From Clostridiales bacterium (GTDB lineage: Bacteria > Bacillota > Clostridia > Lachnospirales > Lachnospiraceae), in contig JAJQBV010000173.1 of assembly GCA_021203115.1 (NCBI GenBank), forward strand, positions 1 to 16,365: 16,365 bases of DNA. The letters run 5' to 3'. The notes beneath the pieces were generated by a model, which was not told where the DNA came from, made no database searches, and worked only from the letters and a program-made list of their open reading frames with translations. This document shows, one piece after another, positions 1 through 11,207 of this stretch. How positions within the stretch are numbered: position 1 is the stretch's first letter; each line of letters starts with the position of its first letter. The position numbers were made by a program, and so were the translations under genes.

Positions 1-906
1 TTGGAGGTTCAGATGCTGGGATGCGCGGTTGGGGAGTATCGGGTGTATTTGCTGCATCGTTCGGGTGAGGAGACAGCTTTTTCTGTGGAAGGAGTTCCGA
101 TAGGAGATCTCCGTGTCCGGAGCGGATTCGGAAAAGAGGTTTTTCTGTTCCCGGCGGAGAATATCGGGGAAAGTACCTATCGCCTGAGCGATTTTTGCGG
201 GTTGTATCTCTCGATGGGCGAGGCAGGGTTTGTTGCCAGCCAGTGGGATGATGGGGAATTAGACTGGGGGAGTTTTCATATATACAAACGTCCGGACACT
301 TCCGGAACGGACAGAACGGATGACGGGCAGACGAATGATGACAGTATCGGGTTCGGAGAGGACAAAAAGAATGCGGAAGATGGGCAAAAAAGCATCGGTG
401 TTGCAGAGGATAAATCAGACCAGAATGAAGAAAAGAAGACAGGGGGTGTGACAACAGGCGCAGACGACCAGCCGCAGCCGAATCCGCCGGAGGTACAGGC
501 CACCCAGACAGCGGCTGCCGCAGATTTCTCTCCGTATGTGACCGCGTGGGAGAAACAGTGGCAGCGATTCTGCGCACGGCATCCGGTTTTCTGCCCGTTC
601 GACGAGGCGCAGGATATCTATGCGGTGAAGGCGGACCTGCGTGATCTGCGGAGTTTGCCGAAACAATATTGGCAATTAGCAAACAACAGCTTTCTCCTCC
701 ACGGATATTTTAATTATAAGTACATTCTCTTCGGCTGTGTGAACGGTGAAAAGAAAAAATGGTTTGTGGCCGTTCCGGGGGTGTTTCAGAATCAGGAGCA
801 GATGCTGGCCGGAATCTTCGGATTTCCCGATTTTCGCACGAAACATGTGACAAAGCAGAAGAGCGGAGAATTCGGATTCTGGTACCGGTATCTTGATAAA
901 TTATGA
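1..906 (+). CDS. DUF6128-like protein, 5'-partial
   Basis: Open frame from the first base to a TGA at 904-906. The first codon is TTG without visible upstream sequence, so the gene probably begins outside the window. The N-terminal part (to about residue 95) looks like a small beta-rich domain. It is followed by a low-complexity, Asp/Gly/Lys/Gln-rich hydrophilic linker (about 96-175). The C-terminal domain (about 178-301) is rich in aromatics and includes HPVFCPFD, NNSFLLHGYFNYKYILFG and a VPGVFQNQEQMLAGIFGFP stretch. This C-terminal pattern resembles the DUF6128 family of Lachnospiraceae, which has no known function. No signal peptide or membrane segment is visible in the part present. It ends 46 bp before the tadA start on the same strand, so the two may be co-transcribed. 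Family assignment is from memory and moderately sure; no function is claimed. Confidence 0.7.
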   Translation: MEVQMLGCAVGEYRVYLLHRSGEETAFSVEGVPIGDLRVRSGFGKEVFLFPAENIGESTYRLSDFCGLYLSMGEAGFVASQWDDGELDWGSFHIYKRPDTSGTDRTDDGQTNDDSIGFGEDKKNAEDGQKSIGVAEDKSDQNEEKKTGGVTTGADDQPQPNPPEVQATQTAAAADFSPYVTAWEKQWQRFCARHPVFCPFDEAQDIYAVKADLRDLRSLPKQYWQLANNSFLLHGYFNYKYILFGCVNGEKKKWFVAVPGVFQNQEQMLAGIFGFPDFRTKHVTKQKSGEFGFWYRYLDKL

Positions 907-952
907 TATTTCGTATATCATAAAACCACCTGAAAACAGACGGAGAATTAGG

Positions 953-1453
953 ATGCAGCAGGATAAATATATGAAGGAAGCGATCCGGCAGGCCAAAAAA
1001 GCCTACGCGCTGGGGGAGGTTCCCATTGGCTGCGTGATCGTGTATGAGGACCGGATTATCGCGCGCGGGTACAACCGGAGAAATACGGACAAAAATACGC
1101 TGTCCCACGCGGAGATCACGGCAATCCGGAGGGCAAGCAAAAAGATGGGAGACTGGCGGCTGGAGGGGTGTACGATGTATGTCACCTTAGAGCCCTGTCA
1201 GATGTGCGCCGGCGCGCTGGTGCAATCCCGTATTGACCGAGTGGTGATCGGGACGATGAACCCGAAAGCGGGCTGCGCGGGCTCCGTTTTAAATCTGCTC
1301 CAGATGGCAGAGTTTAACCATCAGGTGGAGATTGAGCGCGGTGTTTGCAGGGAGGAGTGCGCTGATCTGCTGCAGCGGTTTTTCGTTGAGCTGCGGGAGC
1401 GGAACCGGCGGGAAAAAGAGAATAAAAATAACCCGGCCGACGAGTGTTCCTAA
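953..1453 (+). CDS. tadA: tRNA-specific adenosine deaminase TadA
   Basis: Cytoplasmic zinc deaminase converting A34 to inosine in the anticodon of tRNA-Arg(ACG). The predicted protein has 166 aa, the normal TadA length. The cytidine-deaminase fold signature is complete: the HAE motif (SHAEITAI, about residues 52-59) supplies a zinc ligand and the catalytic Glu, and the PCxxC motif (EPCQMCAGA) supplies the two Cys ligands. The frame stays open back to 893, but the start at 953 is preferred. It gives MQQDKYMKEAI, has a GGAG 7-8 bases upstream (942-945), and avoids overlap with the preceding gene. In Bacillus subtilis this gene sits directly before the SRP RNA and dnaX; here about 6 kb separates them. 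The tail is Arg/Lys/Asn-rich. Confident. Confidence 0.96.
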   Translation: MQQDKYMKEAIRQAKKAYALGEVPIGCVIVYEDRIIARGYNRRNTDKNTLSHAEITAIRRASKKMGDWRLEGCTMYVTLEPCQMCAGALVQSRIDRVVIGTMNPKAGCAGSVLNLLQMAEFNHQVEIERGVCREECADLLQRFFVELRERNRREKENKNNPADECS

Positions 1454-1530
1454 GAATAATCTGTAGTTGAGCTTAGACACCGCCGATACAGATGTCAGAC
1501 ATCTGCACTCCTTTCGGAACCGGGTTATTA

Positions 1531-2340
1531 TTAAGGTTGAATTTCGATCGGCCCGTTTTGGGCGATATAGTGATATCTGCCGTCCTCTCCCTGATACACT
1601 TCCAGATTGCAGGGAACATTCTGAGACGGATCCGGATGATTTTTCCAGAGCTCATACAGCTTCGGGAGGAAGACGGGCCACTGGCTGGCCTCATAGTCCT
1701 CATGGTCTGTCGCCCAGTTGGGTGTCGGCCGGTAATCCGGGTTTTCTTTCAGCATATCCAGAACAAAGCCGGGCGGCATGGAGCATCTGGAGTTTGCCAC
1801 CGTCGCCGTGATGTGGAGGAGGCCGCCCTCGCAGTCTTCCCACATATGTACGGTGGAGTCCACGAATTCCCCGATGTCATTGAAAACGCCCTCGCAGAGG
1901 ACATGCTTTAAACAGGTCGTAAACGGGAAAAAGTCATCCAGAGCCAGGCGGTGGATCTGTACACCCTCGCCGCCGAAGACCGGAATCCCCCGTCCGACCG
2001 TTTCCGCAATCATGTGAACGGAGTTCTCAAAGCCGACCTCCGCCGGAGATTTGATCCATGTGAACTTTTTGTGCGAGCCCGGCGCCCAGAGATAATAGCC
2101 CTTGTCCATGTTTGCCCAGAACCAGTCCAGCATTTCGGCGGTGACGCCCGGAAGAAAATGCTGCTTCTGGGAGGGGAGCTCGTATCCTTTTGCGATCGCT
2201 TCCGGCGTCAGCCGCAGGGCGGGAAGGAGCGGATCCGGCTTTGCCGGAGGCTCGAAGGGGAGCAGGTCGATGTGAATATTGTCCCGGACAGGCTGATAGG
2301 TCTGACCGGCGTTCGGTGTATATGTGACAGCGTCTGACAT
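1531..2340 (-). CDS. Divergent Phy/PhlG-family (phloretin / DAPG hydrolase-like) zinc hydrolase
   Basis: 269-aa protein, start ATG at 2340 with a G-rich Shine-Dalgarno (TGGGGGT) just upstream. It is related to the two hydrolases at 2723 and 3693 but clearly more distant. Family hallmarks I can align are PGVTAEMLDWFW (residues 64-75), a His in APGSHKKF (H90), an HxxxE pair in SVHMIAE (H109/E113) and a second HxxxE (H213/E217). The last pair is followed after seven residues by LPKLYE, with exactly the spacing seen in both paralogues. In PhlG the zinc is held by two His and two Glu with the last pair as HxxxE, so the metal site looks intact. It lacks the N-terminal YYKYY motif and carries about 35 extra C-terminal residues. 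It has its own near-consensus promoter and no LysR operator copy. Likely reaction: hydrolytic C-C cleavage next to an aryl ketone; substrate unknown. Confidence 0.8.
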   Translation of the reverse strand: MSDAVTYTPNAGQTYQPVRDNIHIDLLPFEPPAKPDPLLPALRLTPEAIAKGYELPSQKQHFLPGVTAEMLDWFWANMDKGYYLWAPGSHKKFTWIKSPAEVGFENSVHMIAETVGRGIPVFGGEGVQIHRLALDDFFPFTTCLKHVLCEGVFNDIGEFVDSTVHMWEDCEGGLLHITATVANSRCSMPPGFVLDMLKENPDYRPTPNWATDHEDYEASQWPVFLPKLYELWKNHPDPSQNVPCNLEVYQGEDGRYHYIAQNGPIEIQP

Positions 2341-2369
2341 AGTGTACCCCCATAAAATAGTATGAGATT

Positions 2370-2398
2370 ATTATAAGTGTGTGCGCGTGCGCCGTCAA
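2370..2398 (-). promoter_or_regulatory. Sigma-A promoter of the divergent hydrolase gene (1531-2340)
   Basis: Reading the minus strand, TTGACG (2398-2393), a 17-bp spacer, then TATAAT (2375-2370). The predicted start is near 2363, giving a leader of about 22 nt. The -35 box directly abuts the T-tract of the tRNA terminator. No regulator-type palindrome is seen upstream, so expression may be constitutive. Confidence 0.8.
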
Positions 2399-2435
2399 TA
2401 AAAAACGCCTGCTGTTTCGTATCACAGCAGGCGTT
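2399..2435 (-). terminator. Intrinsic terminator of tRNA-Ser
   Basis: Perfect 11-bp stem AACGCCTGCTG (2404-2414) / CAGCAGGCGTT (2425-2435) with a 10-nt loop. On the minus strand it is followed by six T (2405-2400). It lies 4 bp beyond the tRNA 3' end and stops tRNA transcription before the hydrolase promoter. Confidence 0.9.
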
Positions 2436-2439
2436 TCAG

Positions 2440-2526
2440 CTGAGACGGTGGGATTCGAACCCACGATCCCAAAAAGTACTACCTGATTTCGAGTCAGGAC
2501 CGTTATGACCGCTTCGATACGTCTCC
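2440..2526 (-). tRNA. tRNA-Ser(CGA)
   Basis: The minus strand folds as a class II tRNA. The anticodon stem is CCTGA/TCAGG around loop CTCGAAA, so the anticodon is CGA, reading UCG. The T arm GTGGG-TTCGAAT-CCCAC is perfect. A 17-nt variable region marks it as serine type, and the discriminator base is G. CCA is not encoded. Oddities: acceptor GGAGACG pairs with CGTCTCA at only six positions, leaving a G1-A72 mismatch, and the long variable arm pairs poorly. It has its own promoter and terminator. Identity is sure; full functionality is slightly less so. Confidence 0.92.
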
Positions 2527-2536
2527 ATGGCTCAAT

Positions 2537-2565
2537 ATTATAATCGGATTTTACGGAGGCGTCAA
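2537..2565 (-). promoter_or_regulatory. Promoter of tRNA-Ser(CGA)
   Basis: Minus strand: TTGACG (2565-2560), 17-bp spacer, TATAAT (2542-2537). The predicted start lies a few bases before the mature tRNA 5' end at 2526. It is divergent from the hydrolase promoter at 2642-2670. Confidence 0.85.
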
Positions 2566-2604
2566 TTCTTTTTTAAATTGAATTTTCCGCATCTTTCCGG
2601 CGAA

Positions 2605-2624
2605 TTATTCCGATCAGGCATGAA
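2605..2624 (+). promoter_or_regulatory. Putative LysR-regulator operator, copy 1 (hydrolase gene 2723-3547)
   Basis: Sequence TTATTCCGATCAGGCATGAA. It is an imperfect palindrome with a T-N11-A core (T2608, A2620) as LysR-type regulators recognise. The dyad extends to 2627 as TTATTC-N11-GAATAA. It matches the copy at 5667-5686 at 16 of 20 positions and the copy at 4649-4668 at 16 of 20. Its centre is about 63 bp upstream of the predicted start of the hydrolase gene. Binding is inferred, not shown. Confidence 0.65.
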
Positions 2625-2641
2625 TAAAAAAATCTGTTCGC

Positions 2642-2670
2642 TGTACATGACGCTGCAGTGAAGATATAAT
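2642..2670 (+). promoter_or_regulatory. Promoter of hydrolase gene 2723-3547
   Basis: TGTACA (2642-2647), 17-bp spacer, perfect TATAAT (2665-2670). The -35 box matches the consensus at only four of six positions, as expected of an activator-dependent promoter, and the putative operator lies just upstream. Predicted start about 2677, leader about 46 nt. Confidence 0.65.
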
Positions 2671-2722
2671 AATGTAAAAGAACCGATTCATTTCACTATC
2701 ATTTTATGGAGGAGGAAGACAT

Positions 2723-3547
2723 ATGGATGCACCGAAAGTAAAAGTTTCCGAGGAAGGGAAAAAGCGCAGCTATTACAAGTATTATCTGAAGGACATTGCA
2801 GAAGTCCCGGCTGAGAAGCAGAAGATTCTGGAGAACCCGAAGGGTGATCCGGCAGACGCGCTTCGCATTGAGGACCGAAACCGGATCTTTGAGCCGGGCT
2901 ATCTGGCGGGAGAGGCCGGTTATTATCTGTTGGAGAACGGCACCGCAGTGGTGGCGAACAAGACAGATTTCCCGGGCTCGAAGGGTGAGATGCTTCAGTG
3001 GTGGTTCGCATGGCACGGTGTGGAGCCGACCCGTTATGCGATCTGGGATCCGCATGACCACCATGGGCTGGAGGTCAGCGATGAGGATCGTGCAAAGATG
3101 ATCGACCCGAATCTGACACCTGCGCAGAAGTGCGCCGGTATTCATCACACGGTTTACGAGTCGCTTGTGCCGGGCGAAAAGCCGGATCACATCGAGATTG
3201 ACTTCAGAGATCCGGGTGAGATGGGCTTTGATACATCCAAGATTTTCACGGAGAACTGCTCTTTTATCGTCTGCGCCAATACCGGCTTGGAAGCGCCGGA
3301 CGGGAGTATGGTTCCGGTGGTGATGATGCACATGGCCAGAGATACGGAGGATGGATGCGAGCTGCGCAGCCGCTTCTGGATGGGATATCACATCATCGAC
3401 GGTGAGCCCAAAAAGCTGCTGCCGGACGGAATCGAGTTCCCGGAGCCGATACTGAAAGCGCTTCTGGCGCACAATTTCCTGGAGTATACGAATCTGTCTA
3501 CCATCCTGCCGTCGGTCTACGCGGAGGAGAAGGATAACTGGGCATGA
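2723..3547 (+). CDS. Phloretin hydrolase / DAPG hydrolase-like zinc C-C hydrolase, paralogue 1
   Basis: 274 aa, start ATG at 2723 with a strong GGAGGAGG (2708-2715). Known family members cleave a C-C bond between a polyphenol ring and a carbonyl. Phloretin hydrolase of Eubacterium ramulus (about 30 kDa subunits) yields phloroglucinol and 3-(4-hydroxyphenyl)propionate; PhlG cuts diacetylphloroglucinol. Visible motifs: YYKYY (17-21), LRIEDRNRIF (48-57), GEMLQWWFAWH (88-98), a His in DPHDHHG (H113), HxxxE at H142/E146 and HxxxE at H250/E254. The H / E / HxxxE pattern and spacing fit the PhlG zinc site. Soluble, no signal peptide. It ends in AEEKDNWA, almost the same tail as the convergent paralogue at 3693-4508. 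A LysR operator copy lies upstream. The family is confident; the substrate could be another acylphloroglucinol or dihydrochalcone. Confidence 0.88.
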   Translation: MDAPKVKVSEEGKKRSYYKYYLKDIAEVPAEKQKILENPKGDPADALRIEDRNRIFEPGYLAGEAGYYLLENGTAVVANKTDFPGSKGEMLQWWFAWHGVEPTRYAIWDPHDHHGLEVSDEDRAKMIDPNLTPAQKCAGIHHTVYESLVPGEKPDHIEIDFRDPGEMGFDTSKIFTENCSFIVCANTGLEAPDGSMVPVVMMHMARDTEDGCELRSRFWMGYHIIDGEPKKLLPDGIEFPEPILKALLAHNFLEYTNLSTILPSVYAEEKDNWA

Positions 3548-3608
3548 TTATAGCTGCGGCAGCAGAACAGAATGCCATATAAGGAATGGCATGTAATGAA
3601 CCACACAA

Positions 3609-3645
3609 AAATCCCCGGAATGCAGCAGGTGCATTTCGGGGATTT
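3609..3645. terminator. Bidirectional terminator between convergent hydrolase genes
   Basis: A 15-bp stem with arms at 3609-3623 and 3631-3645, one G-T wobble and a 7-nt loop. The minus-strand exit is the more U-rich (ATTTTTG); the plus-strand exit has only ATTTCT. A smaller hairpin, ATGCCAT/ATGGCAT, precedes it at 3572-3592. It separates transcripts arriving from both sides. Confidence 0.8.
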
Positions 3646-3692
3646 CTGAATACAGCTTTAAAATCTATGCCGGTGCTGAAAACACATTTGTT

Positions 3693-4508
3693 TTACGCCC
3701 AGTTGTCTTTCTCCTCCTCATAGATGGAGGGAAGGATCGCAGCCAGATTGGCGAACTCTTTTACATTATGGTGCAGGAGGCAGAGCGGTCCGGCGGCCGG
3801 AATCTTTACGTCGTCCGGGATGCACTTTACTGCTTTGCCGTCGATGATCTGCCATCCGAACCAGAATCTGGAGCGAAGGATGGAACCGCCCTTGGCGGGA
3901 CGGAGGAAATGGGTCATCACAACGGGAACATCCGGCGTCTCATCATTGCCGATGATCTGTACATTGGCGCAGACCAGCGCGTTGCATGCCTCGGTGTCTA
4001 CCTTGCTCTCGTCATAACCCATTTTGGACGGACGTTCAAAGGCGATGCGCAGCAGGTCGGTCTGGCCGAGTCCGATGTCCTCCCAGATATTGTGGACGCT
4101 GCCCCAATGGCGCTCGCGCATGGAGAGGCTCATATCCAGAGCTTTCGCTGGGTCATCCAGATAGACATCGTAGTGATCCTCGTTGTCCCAGCAGGCATAG
4201 CGGAGACGGTCGATGGGATGCCATGCGAACCACCAGTCCATCATCTCGCCGGTCACGCCGGGGAAAAATGTCTTGTTGGCGATGAGCGCGGTGCCGTCCT
4301 CCAGCTGCCACCAGCCGAACTCGCCCGGAAGGTCGCCGGGAAGGAAGAGGTCGTTGCGGTTCTGAATGCGCAGAGCCAGAGAATTGTCCAGCGGCTCCGG
4401 AGTGATCATGTCGTATTTTTCCTGCGGTGCAGCGGCAAGATCCTGCGCGTAATATTTGTAGTAGCTTTTTTCACGGTCCTTTAAGGACGCGGGCACTTTT
4501 TTTGCCAT
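3693..4508 (-). CDS. Phloretin hydrolase / DAPG hydrolase-like zinc C-C hydrolase, paralogue 2
   Basis: 271 aa, start ATG at 4508 with AGGAGGAG upstream. It aligns along its whole length with the product of 2723-3547: YYKYY (16-20), ALRIQNRNDLF (45-55), ANKTFFPGVTGEMMDWWFAWH (77-97), metal His H112 in WDNEDHYD, H139/E143 in SVHNIWED and H247/E251 in LLHHNVKEF, and C-terminal LPSIYEEEKDNWA. The full set of putative zinc ligands is kept. By eye it resembles the Eubacterium ramulus phloretin hydrolase type at least as closely as paralogue 1 does. The two convergent copies probably arose by duplication followed by divergence, perhaps to widen the substrate range. It has its own promoter and operator copy, between it and the LysR gene. 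Expected to be cytoplasmic and homodimeric, as in characterised members (family knowledge). Confidence 0.9.
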   Translation of the reverse strand: MAKKVPASLKDREKSYYKYYAQDLAAAPQEKYDMITPEPLDNSLALRIQNRNDLFLPGDLPGEFGWWQLEDGTALIANKTFFPGVTGEMMDWWFAWHPIDRLRYACWDNEDHYDVYLDDPAKALDMSLSMRERHWGSVHNIWEDIGLGQTDLLRIAFERPSKMGYDESKVDTEACNALVCANVQIIGNDETPDVPVVMTHFLRPAKGGSILRSRFWFGWQIIDGKAVKCIPDDVKIPAAGPLCLLHHNVKEFANLAAILPSIYEEEKDNWA

Positions 4509-4589
4509 AATACTTCTCCTCCTGTTATTTGATTAATAATGATGGTTTTAAAATCGGACACGAAAACGGTGTGCCGAATACTTACCTAT

Positions 4590-4618
4590 ATTATACAGAA
4601 TGCGGGAAAATCCGGCAA
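4590..4618 (-). promoter_or_regulatory. Promoter of hydrolase gene 3693-4508
   Basis: Minus strand: TTGCCG (4618-4613), 17-bp spacer, TATAAT (4595-4590). Predicted start about 4583, so the leader is about 75 nt. The putative operator at 4649-4668 lies upstream. Confidence 0.75.
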
Positions 4619-4648
4619 TAATGTACAGAGGGAAAGGTTTTTTCGTAC

Positions 4649-4668
4649 TTATTCCGCTACGGAATGAA
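4649..4668 (-). promoter_or_regulatory. Putative LysR-regulator operator, copy 2 (hydrolase gene 3693-4508)
   Basis: Plus-strand sequence TTATTCCGCTACGGAATGAA. It contains the perfect dyad ATTCCG-cta-CGGAAT (4651-4665) with T-N11-A at T4652/A4664, the most symmetric of the three copies. Its centre (4658) is about 75 bp upstream of the predicted hydrolase start, roughly one helical turn further than in the other two copies. It lies 12 bp beyond the end of the LysR gene. Confidence 0.65.
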
Positions 4669-4679
4669 CGGTATGCCGC

Positions 4680-5600
4680 CTATTCCCGGCTTCGCGTCGG
4701 CCGCAGCTCATCGATAAATTTCTGAATCTGGGGCTTCAGGTTGTTGGGATTCCACGCGCAGATGACGCCGTTCATCTGGTCGACGACGGGAATCTTGACC
4801 AGATCCGGGTTGTCGGGACAGTCAAAATATTCGTCGATGAAGAGAAGGGCGTTTTCCTGCTTCCGGAAGAGATATTTGATTTCGTAGGCGTTTCGGTAAC
4901 CGGGGACGATGGTGGGTTTCACATGGTAAGGAGCCATCCGCTCCTCCAGATCCTCCCGATGCGTCTGCCGCTGCTTCTGTTCCAGTGTGGCAAAGTTCTC
5001 GTACAGTATGTCTGCCATTTTCTGGGTGGTGTTCTTTGCCAGAGGATGTGTCTGGTTCATCATGACATTTGCGTGGGAGCAGGCGGCCCACTTCCAGCAC
5101 AGACCCAGATCCTCCAGAACATAGTGCTCAAAGTCGGGAACCATGATGAGGTCATACCTGCCCTCGAGCAGATCCTCCTCCAGATCGGTCATGTAGGCGC
5201 TGGCAAAACTCAGCTTGATTTCGGGGTGAGATTTTGCAAACTCCTCCTCAATCTCCCAGAGATACAGCTCCGGGCGCGCGGTATTCATGATGCCGATGTG
5301 CAGCTTTTTGTCCTCCTGATTCTGGATGGAGGCTGCCTTGATGTAGCTGTTATGCAGAGCTTTGATCTCATCGTTCCACTCGTCGTAGAGAAGCTGGCCG
5401 ACCTTTGTCAGATGGATCTCACGGGTCGTCCGTATAAAAAGTGTGACTCCGAGGTCGCGCTCCAGTCGGGCGACGCTCTTGCTGACCGCAGACTGCGTCA
5501 TGTTCAGATAGCCGCTGGCTTTCGCGAAGCCGCCGCACTCCGCGACGCGAAGGAATACGATGATCTGTTGGATGGTGACAGGCGCCAGTGTAAAATCCAT
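4680..5600 (-). CDS. LysR-family transcriptional regulator
   Basis: 306 aa from the ATG at 5600, chosen because GGAGG (5607-5611) stands 6-7 bases upstream. An upstream ATG at 5666 would overlap the gene's own predicted promoter. N-terminal winged helix-turn-helix at about residues 10-68: QQIIVFLRVAECGGFAKAS, then MTQSAVSKSVARLERDLG and LTKVGQLLY, all typical of the family. Residues of about 90-300 form the periplasmic-binding-like effector domain (LHIGIMNT, DLIMVPDF, LLFIDEYF). It ends in TAG. It is divergent from the MFS gene, with a shared operator between them. I infer that it controls the transporter and the two close hydrolase paralogues and senses an aromatic substrate or product. LysR function is confident; the regulon is inferred. 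Confidence 0.93.
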   Translation of the reverse strand: MDFTLAPVTIQQIIVFLRVAECGGFAKASGYLNMTQSAVSKSVARLERDLGVTLFIRTTREIHLTKVGQLLYDEWNDEIKALHNSYIKAASIQNQEDKKLHIGIMNTARPELYLWEIEEEFAKSHPEIKLSFASAYMTDLEEDLLEGRYDLIMVPDFEHYVLEDLGLCWKWAACSHANVMMNQTHPLAKNTTQKMADILYENFATLEQKQRQTHREDLEERMAPYHVKPTIVPGYRNAYEIKYLFRKQENALLFIDEYFDCPDNPDLVKIPVVDQMNGVICAWNPNNLKPQIQKFIDELRPTRSRE

Positions 5601-5631
5601 TCCGAGTCCTCCAATCATTATTATAGTAGAA

Positions 5632-5660
5632 ATTATACGCTCTGACGGAAGATTTTTCAA
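5632..5660 (-). promoter_or_regulatory. Promoter of the LysR gene
   Basis: Minus strand: TTGAAA (5660-5655), 17-bp spacer, TATAAT (5637-5632). Predicted start about 5625. The operator at 5667-5686 begins only 6 bp upstream of the -35 box, which fits autoregulation. Confidence 0.8.
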
Positions 5661-5666
5661 CCGCAT

Positions 5667-5686
5667 TTATTCCTGTAAGGCATAAA
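5667..5686 (+). promoter_or_regulatory. Putative LysR-regulator operator, copy 3 (LysR/MFS divergent region)
   Basis: Sequence TTATTCCTGTAAGGCATAAA. The arms TTATTCC and GGCATAA are complementary at six of seven positions, and the core is T-N11-A (T5670, A5682). Its centre is about 64 bp upstream of the predicted MFS start and about 51 bp upstream of the predicted LysR start, so one site could serve both genes. Confidence 0.7.
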
Positions 5687-5703
5687 TGAGAACGATTCAT
5701 TCG

Positions 5704-5733
5704 TTGGACAGTTCTTTATGAAAATTTTATAAT
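5704..5733 (+). promoter_or_regulatory. Promoter of the MFS transporter gene
   Basis: TTGGAC (5704-5709), 18-bp spacer, TATAAT (5728-5733), predicted start about 5740, leader about 42 nt. A second TATAAT at 5744-5749 lacks a matching -35. A short dyad AACGA-N5-TCGTT (5691-5705) overlaps the -35 box. Confidence 0.7.
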
Positions 5734-5781
5734 ATTTTTGGAATATAATAGGGTTCGACAAAAAAGAAAGGAAGGGTAAAC

Positions 5782-7050
5782 ATGAACTCAAACAACAACA
5801 CAAAGAGTAACTTTGGCAAGTGGGGCTGGTCCATGATCATCTACTGCGCGATCAGCTACTATCTTGCCGCAGCGCTCTCCACAGATGCGCTGAACTGGTT
5901 CCCCTCGGCGTTCCAGGCGTACCACGGCTGGGGCGAGAAGTTCGTCAACATGTGCAATTCCATGGCCGGTATCGGCGGATGGATCGGTGTGGCAGCGGCC
6001 ATCGTTTTCAGTATCATGACGGCGAAAAGGGGCAGCCGTTTTATGGCACTGTTCGGAAATATCATCACCGGCGTTCTCTGCCTGGTCATGGCATTTACCG
6101 AATCCCAGCCGGTGTTTTTCCTGATGGTTATCTGCCTGACATTTGTGGGCGGCAACATTCAGTTGAACTGTGTACCGAACAACATTATGAACGTATGGTT
6201 CCCGAAAAAGAAGGGTCTGGCGCTGGGCTGGGCTTCCATGGGTCTGCCGATCTGCACCGCGACGATTATCGTGATCTTTTCCGCGATCGGTAATCCGGGT
6301 ACCGCGTACATTATGTTGGGCATCGTTTGCTTTGCATTTGGTATTGTCTCTCTGTTCTGGGCAAAGAACACACCGGAGGAGGTTGGCTGCACACCGGATA
6401 ACGAGCCGGTTGATCTGGAGGAGGCAAAGGCTCTGATGGCAAAGCAGGAAGCCGCGGCAAAGGATATGACGCTCGGCGTGATTGCGAAGGACAAGAACAC
6501 ATGGCTCATCGGAATCGGACACGGCCTGCTCTGGATGACCACGATCGGTCTGGTTTCGAACTTTGTGACGAAGATGGTTATGACCGGTATTGATTCCAAC
6601 TTTGCGGTTATGATGCTGACTGTGGCTGCCGTGATCGGTATTGTCGGTTCCTATATCTGGGGCTGGCTGGATCAGAAGTTCTCCACCAAAATCGCGTCCA
6701 TTATTTACGGCTGCTGGTATCTGATCGCACTGCTGATCATGATTTTCCAGAACGGAGCGATGGCGCTGGTTATTCTGGCTGCGATTTTTGTCGGTTTCGG
6801 CATCGGCGGCATCGGAAACCTGATCCCGTCCATCATCGGCACCTGCTTCGGCCGTTTCGGCTTCATTCAGGCGAACCGTCTGATCGCGCCGATCAACACG
6901 GCGGTTCGTTCCACTGCTCTGATCATCATCGGTGCGGTTGGCGTTGCAAACCTGAATACAGCGTACATGATTTTCTTTGCCGGTTCTGTGATCGCGATTA
7001 TCATGATCTGCTTTATCAAGCCGGATGAGAAAAAGATTAAATTCAAATAA
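5782..7050 (+). CDS. MFS transporter, oxalate/formate-antiporter-like (OFA) type
   Basis: 422 aa, start ATG at 5782 with AAGGAAGG upstream. Very hydrophobic, with about twelve membrane segments in two halves, at roughly 15-35, 58-80, 86-105, 110-130, 145-168 and 172-193, then 240-262, 272-296, 304-323, 326-348, 365-388 and 393-412. A charged central loop (about 195-238) separates the halves. A motif-A-like loop, MTAKRGSRF (79-88), follows helix 2. NVWFPKKKGLALGWASMG (137-154) resembles the WFPxxRGLAxG signature of OFA-type carriers. Context (divergent LysR, two aromatic hydrolases, shared operator) suggests uptake of the hydrolase substrate or exchange with an aromatic acid product. MFS membership is sure; OFA subfamily and substrate are inferred. 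Confidence 0.92.
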   Translation: MNSNNNTKSNFGKWGWSMIIYCAISYYLAAALSTDALNWFPSAFQAYHGWGEKFVNMCNSMAGIGGWIGVAAAIVFSIMTAKRGSRFMALFGNIITGVLCLVMAFTESQPVFFLMVICLTFVGGNIQLNCVPNNIMNVWFPKKKGLALGWASMGLPICTATIIVIFSAIGNPGTAYIMLGIVCFAFGIVSLFWAKNTPEEVGCTPDNEPVDLEEAKALMAKQEAAAKDMTLGVIAKDKNTWLIGIGHGLLWMTTIGLVSNFVTKMVMTGIDSNFAVMMLTVAAVIGIVGSYIWGWLDQKFSTKIASIIYGCWYLIALLIMIFQNGAMALVILAAIFVGFGIGGIGNLIPSIIGTCFGRFGFIQANRLIAPINTAVRSTALIIIGAVGVANLNTAYMIFFAGSVIAIIMICFIKPDEKKIKFK

Positions 7051-7074
7051 GGGATATGCGTGAATAGCAAAGCG

Positions 7075-7110
7075 AAAGCCGTGCGGGAGAAATGTCCTGC
7101 ACGGCTTTTT
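7075..7110. terminator. Bidirectional terminator between MFS gene and SRP RNA
   Basis: Stem AAAGCCGTGCGGGA (7075-7088) / TCCTGCACGGCTTT (7095-7108) with one G-T wobble and a 6-nt loop. It is followed by T7106-7110 on the plus strand, and AAAAAG on this side gives a U-rich flank only for plus-strand transcription. In reverse the helix is followed by CTTTCG. It ends the MFS mRNA and plausibly also stops SRP RNA transcription, which arrives from the opposite side. Confidence 0.85.
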
Positions 7111-7129
7111 GTTGAGTTTTGATTTCAAA

Positions 7130-7393
7130 TCCGAGCATCCTGCGTTGAATCCCGACCCCAGACGTTACTTCTGCAGTTAGCTCATCCCAGGCACCCTCAC
7201 GGCACACAGGAGATCCTGCTTAGGGCTGCTCCATTCCTGACCTGACCCGGTTCACAGGTTCCTGTTGCGCGAGACCCGGAAATCCACGCCACTTACAGAA
7301 GGCAGCTCTACGATCGAAAACCCGCGGCAGGATATCACCCCAACTATAGCGGATTGATGGTACAGGGCGCCGCTGCTGCCCCGGCTGCTCGGA
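7130..7393 (-). ncRNA. ffs: Signal recognition particle RNA, long bacterial form with Alu domain
   Basis: RNA scaffold of the signal recognition particle, which binds Ffh at the S domain. The minus strand carries the conserved core GTCAGGTCAGGAATGGAGCA around a GGAA tetraloop (7234-7237 on the plus strand) and then GCCCTAAGCAG. It also has GAGCTAACTGCAGAAGTAACG near the 3' end and the Alu-domain stretch GCGCCCTGTACCATCAATCC near the 5' end, all closely matching Bacillus scRNA. The termini pair as TCCGAGCA/TGCTCGGA (7393-7386 with 7137-7130), which sets the ends at about 264 nt. The 5' end fits the promoter at 7400-7429. The apical helix-8 pairs have covaried relative to the usual sequence (C-G to A-U next to the loop). 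In Bacillus the gene lies in the same orientation between tadA and dnaX; here it is reversed. Confidence 0.95.
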
Positions 7394-7399
7394 GTCTTC

Positions 7400-7429
7400 A
7401 GTATACCATTGCTGCGGCTTTTATGTCAA
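7400..7429 (-). promoter_or_regulatory. Promoter of SRP RNA
   Basis: Minus strand: perfect TTGACA (7429-7424), 18-bp spacer, TATACT (7405-7400). The predicted start is at about 7393, matching the terminal helix of the RNA. It is a strong stable-RNA type promoter, divergent from the pfk promoter. Confidence 0.88.
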
Positions 7430-7475
7430 GCATCTGTAAAAAACGAAAAAATGCCCGGAAATCACGGTCCACAAC

Positions 7476-7504
7476 TTGTAAAACCCTATTGAATTTGCTA
7501 AAAT
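7476..7504 (+). promoter_or_regulatory. Promoter of the pfk-dnaX-ebfC-recR-tkt operon
   Basis: TTGTAA (7476-7481), 17-bp spacer, TAAAAT (7499-7504). Predicted start about 7511, leader about 52 nt. No other convincing promoter was seen before the terminator at 13019. Confidence 0.65.
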
Positions 7505-7562
7505 CTTGGGAGTGGGTAACGATATATCCCGCAGAATGTGAAAGATGAAGGAGGAAGCTCGC

Positions 7563-8636
7563 ATGAAACGAATCGGTATGCTGACCAGCGGCGGGGATTG
7601 CCAGGCTTTAAATGCGGCGATGCGCGGCGTGATGAAGGGGCTTTCCACCGGCGGTGATGAGCTGGAGATTTACGGATTTTACGATGGATACAGAGGACTG
7701 ATTTACAGTGATTACAGATATCTGACAGCCCGGGACTTCTCCGGCATCCTGACCAAGGGCGGGACAATTCTCGGCACATCGCGGCAGCCGTTTAAGGAGA
7801 TGCGGATACCGGATGAGAATGGTCTGGACAAGGTGGAGGCGATGAAACACACCTACCACAAGCTGAATCTGGACTGTCTGGTGATTCTCGGCGGAAACGG
7901 AACGCAGAAGACGGCCAACCTGCTTCGGGAGGAGGGGCTGAATGTCCTGCATCTGCCGAAGACGATCGACAATGATATCTGGGGGACGGACATTACGTTC
8001 GGATTCCAGAGCGCGCTGAATATCGCGACGAACACCATTGACTGTATTCACACTACGGCGGCTTCCCATAACCGGGTGTTTATTGTGGAGGTTATGGGAC
8101 ACAAGGTGGGCTGGCTTCCGCTTCACGCGGGGATTGCGGGCGGCGCCGACATTATCCTGATTCCGGAAATTCCGTATAAGATTGATAAGATTGTGGAGGC
8201 GGTAGACCGCAGGACGCGTCAGGGAAAGGGCTTTACGATTCTGGCGGTCGCGGAGGGCGCGATTTCCGTGGAGAACGCAAAGCTTTCCAAGAAAGAGTTT
8301 AAGGAGATGGTGCAGAGTGTGAAATACCCCTCTGTCTCCTACGAGGTGGCGGATCAGATCGGGCAGATGACCGGCCGCGAGGTGCGCGTGACGGTGCCCG
8401 GACATATGCAGCGCGGCGGCAGTCCCTGTGCGTTCGACCGGGTGCTCTGCACGCAGCTGGGCGCGGCGGCGGCGCAGGCCATTGAAGACAGGGATTTCGG
8501 TTACATGATCGGGATGGTAAACGGGCAGACGACGCGGGTTCCCTTAAGTGAGGCGGCCGGAAAGTTAAAAACCGTGGATCCGGACTGTCAGCTGGTTCAG
8601 GAGGCCAAAAAAGTAGGTATTTGTTTCGGAGACTAA
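7563..8636 (+). CDS. pfk: 6-phosphofructokinase
   Basis: Phosphorylates fructose 6-phosphate to fructose 1,6-bisphosphate, the committed step of glycolysis. 357 aa from the ATG at 7563, chosen for the AAGGAGGAAG just upstream; an ATG at 7545 lies before that ribosome site. Motifs: nucleotide loop TSGGDCQALNAA (8-19), GGTILGTSR (66-74), GGNGTQKTA (110-118), PKTIDNDIWGTD (132-143, catalytic Asp in TID at 136), VEVMGHKVGWL (175-185) and PGHMQRGGSP (279-288). At the two phosphoryl-donor positions it combines Gly (G113, like E. coli G104) with Lys (K133, where E. coli has Gly124). Asn112 replaces the E. coli Mg-binding Asp103. These features mark the long group-III-like PFK clade rather than classic PfkA, so ATP use is likely but not certain from sequence. 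Longer than E. coli PFK (320 aa). Confidence 0.93.
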   Translation: MKRIGMLTSGGDCQALNAAMRGVMKGLSTGGDELEIYGFYDGYRGLIYSDYRYLTARDFSGILTKGGTILGTSRQPFKEMRIPDENGLDKVEAMKHTYHKLNLDCLVILGGNGTQKTANLLREEGLNVLHLPKTIDNDIWGTDITFGFQSALNIATNTIDCIHTTAASHNRVFIVEVMGHKVGWLPLHAGIAGGADIILIPEIPYKIDKIVEAVDRRTRQGKGFTILAVAEGAISVENAKLSKKEFKEMVQSVKYPSVSYEVADQIGQMTGREVRVTVPGHMQRGGSPCAFDRVLCTQLGAAAAQAIEDRDFGYMIGMVNGQTTRVPLSEAAGKLKTVDPDCQLVQEAKKVGICFGD

Positions 8637-8665
8637 CAGGCGTTTCGGAAAGTGAGGAGCCGAAG

Positions 8666-10249
8666 ATGTCATATACGGCTTTATACAGAAAGTACCGGCC
8701 GGAGGATTTCACCGATGTCCGGGGGCAGGATCACATTGTCAAAACGTTAAAAAATCAGATCAAAGCCGACCGGGTCGGCCATGCGTACCTGTTTTGCGGC
8801 ACACGAGGTACGGGGAAGACGACGGTGGCGAAAATTTTTGCCAAGGCGGTCAACTGCGAGCACCCGGTGGACGGCAATCCCTGCGGGGAATGCGCCATGT
8901 GCCGCGCGATTCAGAACGGCACTTCCATGAATGTCATCGAGATTGACGCGGCTTCCAACAACGGCGTGGACGATATCCGGCAGATTCGGGAGGAGGTTGC
9001 CTACTCTCCCACGGAGGGTCGGTATAAGGCCTATATCATCGATGAGGTTCACATGCTCTCGGGTCCGGCGTTTAACGCGTTTTTAAAGACGCTGGAGGAG
9101 CCGCCGGCCTATGTGATCTTTTTGCTGGCGACGACAGAGGTTCACAAGATTCCGGTTACGATTCTATCCCGCTGCCAGCGGTATGATTTCCGGCGGATTA
9201 CCATTGACATGATTGCGGACCGGCTGCGCGAGCTGCTGGATCGGGAAGGTGTGGAGGCGGAGGACGCTGCGGTCCGCTATGTGGCCAGAGCGGCGGACGG
9301 ATCCATGCGGGATGCGCTGAGCCTGATGGAGCAGTGCATCGCGTTTTATCTCGGAGAAACGCTCACCTACGACCATGTGCTGGAGGTGCTCGGCGCGGTG
9401 GACACGGAGGTGTTCAGCCGGCTGCTGCGGGCGATTTATGCGAAGGATGTGACGGCCTCCATCCATATTCTGGAGGAGATGATCATACAGGGCAGGGAGC
9501 CGGGACAGTTTGTGACTGATTTCACATGGTATCTGCGGAATCTGCTTTTGGTGAAGTGCACGGACCGGCTGGAGGATGTTCTGGATATGTCCAGTGAGAA
9601 TCTGGCGCTCCTTAGGGAAGAGGCGGATATGATCGAAAATGAGGTGATCATGCGGTATATCCGGCAGTTTTCGGATCTGTCTGCACAGCTACGCTACGCT
9701 ACGCAGAAGAGGGTTCTCATAGAGATCGCTTTTATCAGACTGTGCCGCCCGTCGATGGAGAGCGGGCAGGACGCGCTGGCGGATCGGGTCGCTTATCTGG
9801 AACAGCAGATGGAAAAGGGAGTGATCCCCGCGGCGGCTGCAGCGGGGACGGCAGGAGCAGCGCACGGTTCGGATTCCGTTTCCGCCAAAAGGACGGCGCC
9901 GCCGAAACCGACGATGCCGAAGGCGATTCCGGAGGATGTAAAGCAGGTGGTGAAGCAGTGGCGCGCGATCATCGCGGAGATGGGCGGACGGGCGCATGTT
10001 CATCTGGGGAAAGCGAAACTCAGTCTGGGCGGAGATAACCGGCTGATGCTTGTGTTTGACGATGAGATGGATTACAATTATGCGGCGGATGAGACGCATA
10101 AGCAGGAAATTACGGATCAGATTTCGAGACGGATCGGCAAGGAGATTTCCATTCACGTTCAGAAAAATGAGAGCGGGAAACCGGCCGGGGATGTCTATCC
10201 CGATTTGGAACAGATCATACACATGGAAATAGAGATAGAGGATATTTGA
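8666..10249 (+). CDS. dnaX: DNA polymerase III subunit gamma/tau
   Basis: Clamp-loader ATPase that loads the beta clamp and organises the replicase. 527 aa from ATG 8666 ([12 protein letters not shown]), preceded by GAGGAG; the open frame extends 15 codons further up but overlaps pfk. AAA+ motifs are Walker A GTRGTGKT (45-52), a zinc module with C64, C73, C76 and C79, Walker B IIDEVH (124-129), sensor 1 around TTE (156-158) and the SRC arginine finger (168-170). The collar domain follows to about residue 360. An Ala/Pro/Lys-rich linker (about 385-420) leads to a C-terminal tau-type domain with [11 protein letters not shown]. No A-rich slippery site like that of E. coli dnaX was seen. 29 bp downstream of pfk, 14 bp before ebfC. 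Confidence 0.97.
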
Positions 10250-10263
10250 AAGGAGCGACAGCA

Positions 10264-10611
10264 ATGGCAAAGGGAAGAGGCGGTTATCCGGGCGGCATGC
10301 CGGGCAACATGAACAACCTGATGAAGCAGGCGCAGCGGATGCAGCGCCAGATGGAAGAGGCGACAAAGGAGCTGGAGGAGAAGGAAGTGACGGCGACTGC
10401 CGGAGGAGGTGCCGTTGAGGTGACGGGGTCCGGCAAAAAAGAGGTCGTGAAGGTAAAGCTGGCCGAGGAGGTCGTAGATCCGGATGATATCGAGATGCTG
10501 GAGGATCTGATCATGGCGGCGGTCAATGAGGCGCTGCGTCAGATGGAGGATCTCTCGCAGGAGTCCATGAACAAGATCACCGGAGGATTAGGCGGAGGAT
10601 TTCCATTCTGA
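10264..10611 (+). CDS. ebfC: YbaB/EbfC-family nucleoid-associated protein
   Basis: 115 aa from ATG 10264, with AGGAG at 10251-10255. Small dimeric DNA-binding protein of the YbaB/EbfC family, encoded between dnaX and recR in most bacteria. The N-terminal segment is Gly/Met-rich ([19 protein letters not shown]). A helical region [20 protein letters not shown] follows, then the beta strands with [16 protein letters not shown], and a C-terminal helix with [14 protein letters not shown]. The tail GGLGGGFPF is typical of Firmicutes members. Its stop codon overlaps the recR start by one base (TGATG), so the two are translationally coupled. Confidence 0.96.
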
Positions 10612-11207
10612 TGGATTACTATAGCAAGCAGATCAGCGAGCTGATCGAGGAGCTGTCGTCGCTTCCGGGTATCGGCAGCAAGACGGCTCAGCGGCTGGCG
10701 TTTCATATTTTAAACATGCCGGCAGACCGCGTGGAGCATCTGGCGGATACGCTGGTGAATGCGCGGCACAATGTCCGGTACTGTAAAACCTGCTGTACAC
10801 TGACTGATGCGCAGGAGTGCCCGATCTGCCGGAATCCGGCGCGTGACCATCAGACGATCATGGTTGTGGAGAACACCCGTGATCTGGCGGCTTATGAGAA
10901 AACCGGGAAGTACGAGGGGGTTTATCACGTCCTTCACGGCGCGATCTCGCCCATGCTGGGGATCGGACCGTCTGATATCCGGCTTAAGGAGCTGATCCAG
11001 CGGCTGGAGGGGGATGTGAAAGAGGTGATCATCGCCACGAATTCCAGTCTGGAGGGAGAGACCACGGCGATGTACATCAGCAAGCTGATCAAGCCCACGG
11101 GCATCCGGGTCTCGCGCATTGCCAGCGGAGTGCCGGTCGGAGGCGATCTGGAATATATCGATGAAGTCACCCTGCTCCGCGCTTTGGAGGGCAGAGTTGA
11201 TTTATAA
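10611..11207 (+). CDS. recR: Recombination mediator protein RecR
   Basis: 198 aa, the standard length. Acts with RecO (and RecF) to load RecA on SSB-coated single-stranded DNA. Domains in order: helix-hairpin-helix LPGIGSKTAQRLAF (18-31), a four-Cys zinc finger C58/C61/C70/C73, a Toprim domain starting at IMVVENTRDLAAYE (83-96) with ATNSSLEGETTA (142-153), and the C-terminal Walker-B-like segment ending RVSRIASGVPVGGDLEYIDEVTLLRAL. Starts within the ebfC stop; no separate ribosome site is needed although GGAGG motifs lie upstream. 24 bp before the transketolase gene. Confidence 0.97.
   Translation: MDYYSKQISELIEELSSLPGIGSKTAQRLAFHILNMPADRVEHLADTLVNARHNVRYCKTCCTLTDAQECPICRNPARDHQTIMVVENTRDLAAYEKTGKYEGVYHVLHGAISPMLGIGPSDIRLKELIQRLEGDVKEVIIATNSSLEGETTAMYISKLIKPTGIRVSRIASGVPVGGDLEYIDEVTLLRALEGRVDL

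Follow-up and report, generated by a model that had tools for sequence, protein, structure and literature searches.

A T-N11-A dyad shared by hydrolase, transporter and regulator promoters as the candidate operator of a LysR-type regulon in Lachnospiraceae

Regulons of LysR-type regulators (LTTRs) in which the regulator gene and a target gene are divergent are well known, those of BenM and CbnR being examples. The LTTR tetramer is described as resting one pair of its DNA-binding domains on a strong recognition site and the other on a weaker activation site, and as shifting upon effector binding. For hydrolases of family PF18089 the described regulator is of a different type: in DAPG-producing Pseudomonas, the TetR protein PhlH is reported to repress phlG (PMC8003664). 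Enzymes of the phloretin hydrolase family are also found in clusters of anaerobes such as Eubacterium ramulus, Clostridium scatologenes and Catenibacillus, and the phloroglucinol cluster of C. scatologenes is reported to include a transporter and a transcriptional regulator (PMC10470551).

The locus considered here lies in a window of 16,365 nucleotides, which is the whole stretch of DNA that was analysed, from a host genome (G000) of 1.69 Mb in 242 contigs that is 79.75% complete. With the regulons of the BenM and CbnR type it shares a regulator carrying both LysR domains, a T-N11-A dyad near -65 and a divergent target, a likeness drawn at the level of the general scheme and with predicted TSSs. 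Unlike them, it has PF18089 C-C hydrolase genes as putative targets: one dyad type is shared by several paralogues, an unlinked one included, and in one target class it stands about one helical turn further away. The hydrolase family is that of the PhlG/PhlH system, but the linked regulator is a LysR and not a TetR protein, and the PhlG equivalog model NF047887 (cut-off 600 bits) is reached neither by hyd1 (105.2 bits) nor by hyd2 (90.2 bits) or hyd4 (71.6 bits), while hyd3 gives no match to it. The clusters of the anaerobes named above are likened to the locus by description, through the phloretin hydrolase family; unlike the present case, the accounts of those phloretin hydrolase and phloroglucinol clusters, in their accessible portions, describe no operator and name no LysR protein.

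Two hydrolase genes of the island, hyd1 (2723..3547, plus strand, 274 aa) and hyd2 (3693..4508, minus strand, 271 aa), score 229.1 and 256.7 bits against PF18089 (DAPG/phloretin hydrolase family; Pfam cut-off 22.7), and hyd4, located elsewhere in the host genome (L017:853-1656), scores 234.2 bits. The three are 40-46% identical in pairwise comparisons, and the best solved relatives of hyd2 are the phloretin hydrolase (5xe5/5xey) and PhlG (3hwp). The third gene of the window, hyd3 (1531..2340, minus strand), is a distant relative, also above the cut-off at 25.5 bits, that was left outside the regulon. A His-Glu-His-Glu set of residues, which I take to be the metal ligands of PhlG, aligns in hyd1 to hyd4, and in hyd2 against 5xe5; divergent as hyd3 is, it keeps these four presumed ligands. 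The regulator gene, lysR (4680..5600, minus strand, 306 aa), starts at 5600 with GGAGG upstream and matches HTH_1 (72.2 bits) and LysR_substrate (46 bits), both above cut-off. Divergent from it is a gene for an MFS transporter (5782..7050, plus strand, 422 aa, MFS_1 67.6 bits). The island seems to be set inside a tadA - tRNA-Ser - SRP RNA - dnaX - recR block (window 893-11207): it is bordered by a tadA-like gene and the tRNA-Ser gene at one end and, at the other, by the large SRP RNA (7131-7392) together with dnaX- and recR-like genes, the protein names being presumptive ones based on the translations.

Three copies of a 19-bp dyad of the T-N11-A type, with the consensus TTATKCC-N5-GGMATRA, occur in the window. 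Operator 1 (2605..2624, dyad 2605-2623, plus strand) precedes hyd1; operator 2 (4649..4668, dyad 4649-4667, minus strand) precedes hyd2 and lies directly 3' of the lysR stop codon; operator 3 (5667..5686, dyad 5667-5685, without assigned strand) is common to the divergent lysR and MFS promoters. The initial annotation had reported these 20-mers at the same coordinates, as imperfect palindromes with a T-N11-A core and without further copies in the window, and on all of this it was right. Each site has no mismatch to the consensus, T4-N11-A16 is present in all three, five, six and six of the seven arm positions are complementary, and tolerating three mismatches adds only site 3 read on the opposite strand. 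The three window operators are real and far beyond chance, 200 shuffled windows giving a mean of 0.07 matches (maximum 2) at up to three mismatches. The annotation had also seen no operator upstream of hyd3. This stands insofar as the tRNA-Ser gene (2439-2526) intervenes between site 1 and hyd3, but site 1 does lie in the hyd3/hyd1 divergent region, 265 bp before the hyd3 ATG.

Promoters predicted purely by consensus match are found for hyd1 (TGTACA-17-TATAAT, 2642..2670, plus strand), hyd2 (TTGCCG-17-TATAAT, 4590..4618, minus strand), the MFS gene (TGGACA-17-TATAAT, 5705..5733, plus strand) and lysR (TTGAAA-17-TATAAT, 5632..5660, minus strand). Relative to the predicted TSSs, the centre of operator 1 is at -63 from hyd1 and that of operator 2 at -75 from hyd2, while operator 3 is centred at -64 from the MFS gene and at -51 from lysR. 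The spacing of about 63-75 bp given earlier between each site and the predicted start downstream of it thus holds for the predicted TSSs of hyd1, hyd2 and the MFS gene; it does not extend to lysR, nor to start codons, which were rejected as its meaning since the dyad centres are 109 (hyd1), 150 (hyd2), 106 (MFS) and 76 bp (lysR) away from them.

The same geometry was found in relatives, where promoters were chosen by the best hexamer score downstream of the dyad, with a bonus for a 17-nt spacer and with distance ignored. Relative to the predicted TSS, the dyad centre lies at -63 for hyd1 in 3/3 genomes, at -74 or -75 for hyd2 in 8/8 (sites with 0 to 2 mismatches), at -65 for hyd4 in all six genomes having the dyad (at up to 2 mismatches), at -64 for the MFS gene in six of the seven genomes examined (the G215 site has 3 mismatches, and G417 is without a dyad) and at -51 for lysR in six (G000, G213, G210, G216, G215, G331). 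The hyd2 dyad is therefore placed about one helical turn further from the TSS than the dyads of hyd1, hyd4 and the MFS gene. The dyad keeps its distance from the next promoter even where the spacer differs, although, orthologous promoters having a common ancestry, these fixed distances are not independent draws. More distant systems give similar values: -66 for the reductase-hydrolase operons in both G205 and G206, -64 for a hydrolase gene in G067 (another genus, with a LysR 37% and a hydrolase 61% identical), and -63 for one hydrolase gene of G203 whose promoter is weaker. Towards lysR in these distant systems, the dyad is at -49 in G205, and no convincing promoter was found at the dyad in G206 and G067. 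One 2-mismatch match (G217:C3, one among 17 PF18089 genes with promoter analysis) seems fortuitous, its promoter being weak and overlapping the start.

The same dyad before hydrolase, transporter and regulator genes, at a distance kept in relatives, is very probably a LysR control site. The interpretation I favour is that the LysR protein (4680-5600) is probably an autoregulated, pathway-specific activator of phloroglucinol-type C-C hydrolase genes and of the MFS gene, acting through the dyad. Its recognition site would be TTATKCC-N5-GGMATRA, bound at -63 to -75 (hyd1, hyd2, MFS and the unlinked hyd4); from there it would activate these four promoters in response to an aromatic effector, and would control its own gene through the dyad between lysR and the MFS gene. 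The effector would be a polyphenol or its cleavage product. Activation, autoregulation and the polyphenol effector are suggested by position, gene content and knowledge of the family; the divergent lysR-MFS layout with its shared site is accompanied by a second layout, lysR-site-hyd2. If the dyad is the LTTR recognition site, the activation site may be a TTC-rich element that accompanies most dyads just ahead of the -35 box, but similar letters are present at hyd4-like promoters without a dyad.

The main competitor, which I consider unlikely, keeps the LysR protein on the dyads and has it mainly repress, repression being relieved by a ligand as with the TetR protein PhlH at phlG. This would agree with phlG, the best-studied PF18089 gene, being reported as under ligand-relieved repression (PMC8003664), and lysR itself may be repressed from its site at -51. 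The dyads, however, lie upstream of -35, with a gap of 6 to 30 bp, and not over the core promoter. Moreover, the distances seen are those usual for LTTR activation, which counts against mainly repressive control.

The host genome holds few copies of the sequence. At up to three mismatches the 20-mer gives 15 strand hits, against 5 for the reversed control; at up to two it is found in four places, the three window sites and C241:734-753. The 19-bp dyad without mismatch occurs in exactly four places, again the three window sites and C241:735-753. The genome-wide scan that had been proposed as a check thus revealed no unrelated spread, all four places at up to two mismatches being at hydrolase or lysR/MFS promoters. 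The C241 dyad precedes hyd4, whose predicted promoter (TTTACA-17-TACAAT) puts it at -65. As the hyd4 gene was invisible in the window from which the initial annotation was made, this site amounts to an out-of-window prediction that held. It also makes the annotation's compact regulon within the island too narrow a description: the three island sites hold, and the fourth is on another contig.

Conservation was followed in the 20 genomes of the genus, ten of which have a LysR match at 1e-40; four contigs with LysR orthologues each carry dyads. The comparison of orthologous loci, also proposed at the outset, bore out the site: the dyad is met again, in a fixed geometry, at orthologous promoters of other species and genera. 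PF18089 matches are present in 19/20 genomes, with 0 to 12 match rows per genome and 107 rows in total; the hydrolases are strongly multiplied in this genus, and most are without a dyad. From 84 of these rows 79 genes were analysed (five row pairs were merged as one gene each); of the 23 omitted rows, one (G200:C49) scored 77.6 bits and the other 22 reached about 31 bits at most. A close set of 67 genes, in which every gene with a row of at least 100 bits was kept, was then scanned over upstream regions of up to 350 bp, four of which (161, 171, 198 and 242 bp) were cut short by a contig end. The best upstream dyad had 0, 1 or 2 mismatches in 9, 4 and 4 genes, that is, 13/67 genes with a 0-1-mismatch site. 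Shuffling each region 20 times (1,340 in total) gave no site at 0 or 1 mismatch, and 0.8 per set at 2.

These sites are concentrated in genomes with this LysR: 12 of the 13 belong to the 31 close genes of the six genomes whose LysR is at least 68% identical, and the other 36 close genes hold a single one (in G209, a genome that is 73% complete). Control of every PF18089 paralogue was rejected on the same figures, since 12/31 close genes in the six core genomes have a 0-1-mismatch site. As delimited by the dyad, the predicted regulon reaches beyond the island and leaves out most paralogues. Of the 18 places with a perfect dyad in the 20 genomes, 15 belong to hydrolase genes or operons or to lysR/MFS, the three exceptions being two in G159 and one in G200. 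At 0 mismatches the reversed control gave 0 in one set of six genomes; in a set of nine it gave 2, with the dyad in 8 places, 6 of them on target. One mismatch was dropped as a genome-wide criterion, since in the 20 genomes the dyad then gives 216 strand hits and the reversed control as many as 132. G216 stands out at this level, with 31 strand hits against 8, and has only two perfect places, both on target.

The hyd4-like genes, 13 in number and chosen by Pfam match start as putative orthologues, separate the dyad from the promoter. The promoter TTTACA-17-TACAAT is exact in ten of them and near-exact in two more, and the dyad stands at -65 in six (G000, G213, G209, G216, G215 and, with 2 mismatches, G211) and is absent in seven. 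The same promoter with a dyad in some genes only suggests that genes may enter or leave the regulon through the dyad. The agreement between dyad and LysR match is imperfect: G203 has a LysR and no dyad at hyd4, and both G211 (2-mismatch site) and G209 (perfect site; genome 73% complete) have the hyd4 dyad and no LysR at 1e-40.

Beyond the closest orthologues, LysR proteins of 52% (G205, G206) and 37% identity (G067) have the dyad beside a hydrolase gene or its operon. No site at up to two mismatches was found for four LysR homologues of the genus with 30-41% identity, one of them the paralogue of G216 (32%) beside a hydrolase gene. In the dyad-bearing operons of G206 (L133:2005-5919) and G205 (L130:5167-8827), the hydrolase gene comes after genes for a fumarate-reductase-like flavoprotein and for a nitronate-monooxygenase/FabK-like protein; these two proteins could possibly carry out further steps of the hydrolase pathway. 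In G205, a flavoprotein-lysR-150-aa block occurs twice in tandem on one contig (L130:7076-15648), either a real duplication or an effect of assembly. A 318-aa protein, P0081, in which a LysR HTH is followed by the second part of a hyd2-like hydrolase, was rejected as a natural fusion and not used as evidence: it is cut in both domains and its two member sequences come from a single contig, which makes an in-frame deletion or a chimeric assembly the likelier origin.

In the family as a whole, a LysR match at 1e-55 was obtained in 9/397 genomes, host included; scoring was limited to five candidates per genome, so that some relatives may have escaped notice. In G331, MFS-lysR-hyd2 is accompanied by sites having 0 and 1 mismatch, and in G386 lysR-hyd2 by a perfect site, with the distances equal to those of the window. 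A 1-mismatch site adjoins a hydrolase gene in G067; around the 2-mismatch sites of G246 and G313, the 3.9-kb stretch contains no hydrolase gene. No dyad at up to two mismatches was found at the loci of G417 (LysR 46%, with an MFS gene), G395 (LysR 31%, beside a hydrolase gene) and G252. Single perfect dyads occur elsewhere in G246 and G417, not at hydrolase genes.

This distribution bears on a second alternative, slightly less probable than repression, whereby some other transcription factor binds the dyad and lysR is merely among its targets. The dyads of G209 and G211, where no LysR was found, and the LysR homologues without a dyad would be explained in this way. Yet the dyad accompanies this LysR clade beyond the genus, where it again lies beside lysR; G209 is 73% complete; and the T-N11-A core is described as the usual LTTR pattern. 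That the dyads are RNA or DNA structures, such as a terminator after lysR (operator 2 does immediately follow its stop codon), or chance repeats is very improbable, given 0/5 terminator-like hits at dyads, the window shuffles and the 0/1,340 shuffled upstream regions, which exclude chance, and a distance to the next promoter conserved over a varying spacer.

Enzymes of gut anaerobes for the breakdown of flavonoids and phloretin-like compounds are being catalogued, and neither their regulation by LysR proteins nor a LysR operator for PF18089 hydrolases appears in titles or abstract openings among the matches listed, most subscription journals lying outside the search. The LysR/dyad regulon proposed here for the activator is a new example of a familiar type of gene control. 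With a single regulator, a 19-bp candidate operator and a set of target promoters in hand, the inducer becomes accessible to reporter assays, and the dyad sorts up to a dozen PF18089 matches per genome into those with it and those without. On a broader and more tentative view, Lachnospiraceae may possess an LTTR subfamily in which one dyad code recruits a changing set of diverged C-C hydrolase paralogues, one target class being acted upon from one helical turn further away, so that the range of plant polyphenols under a single sensor would be rewired by gain and loss of operators.
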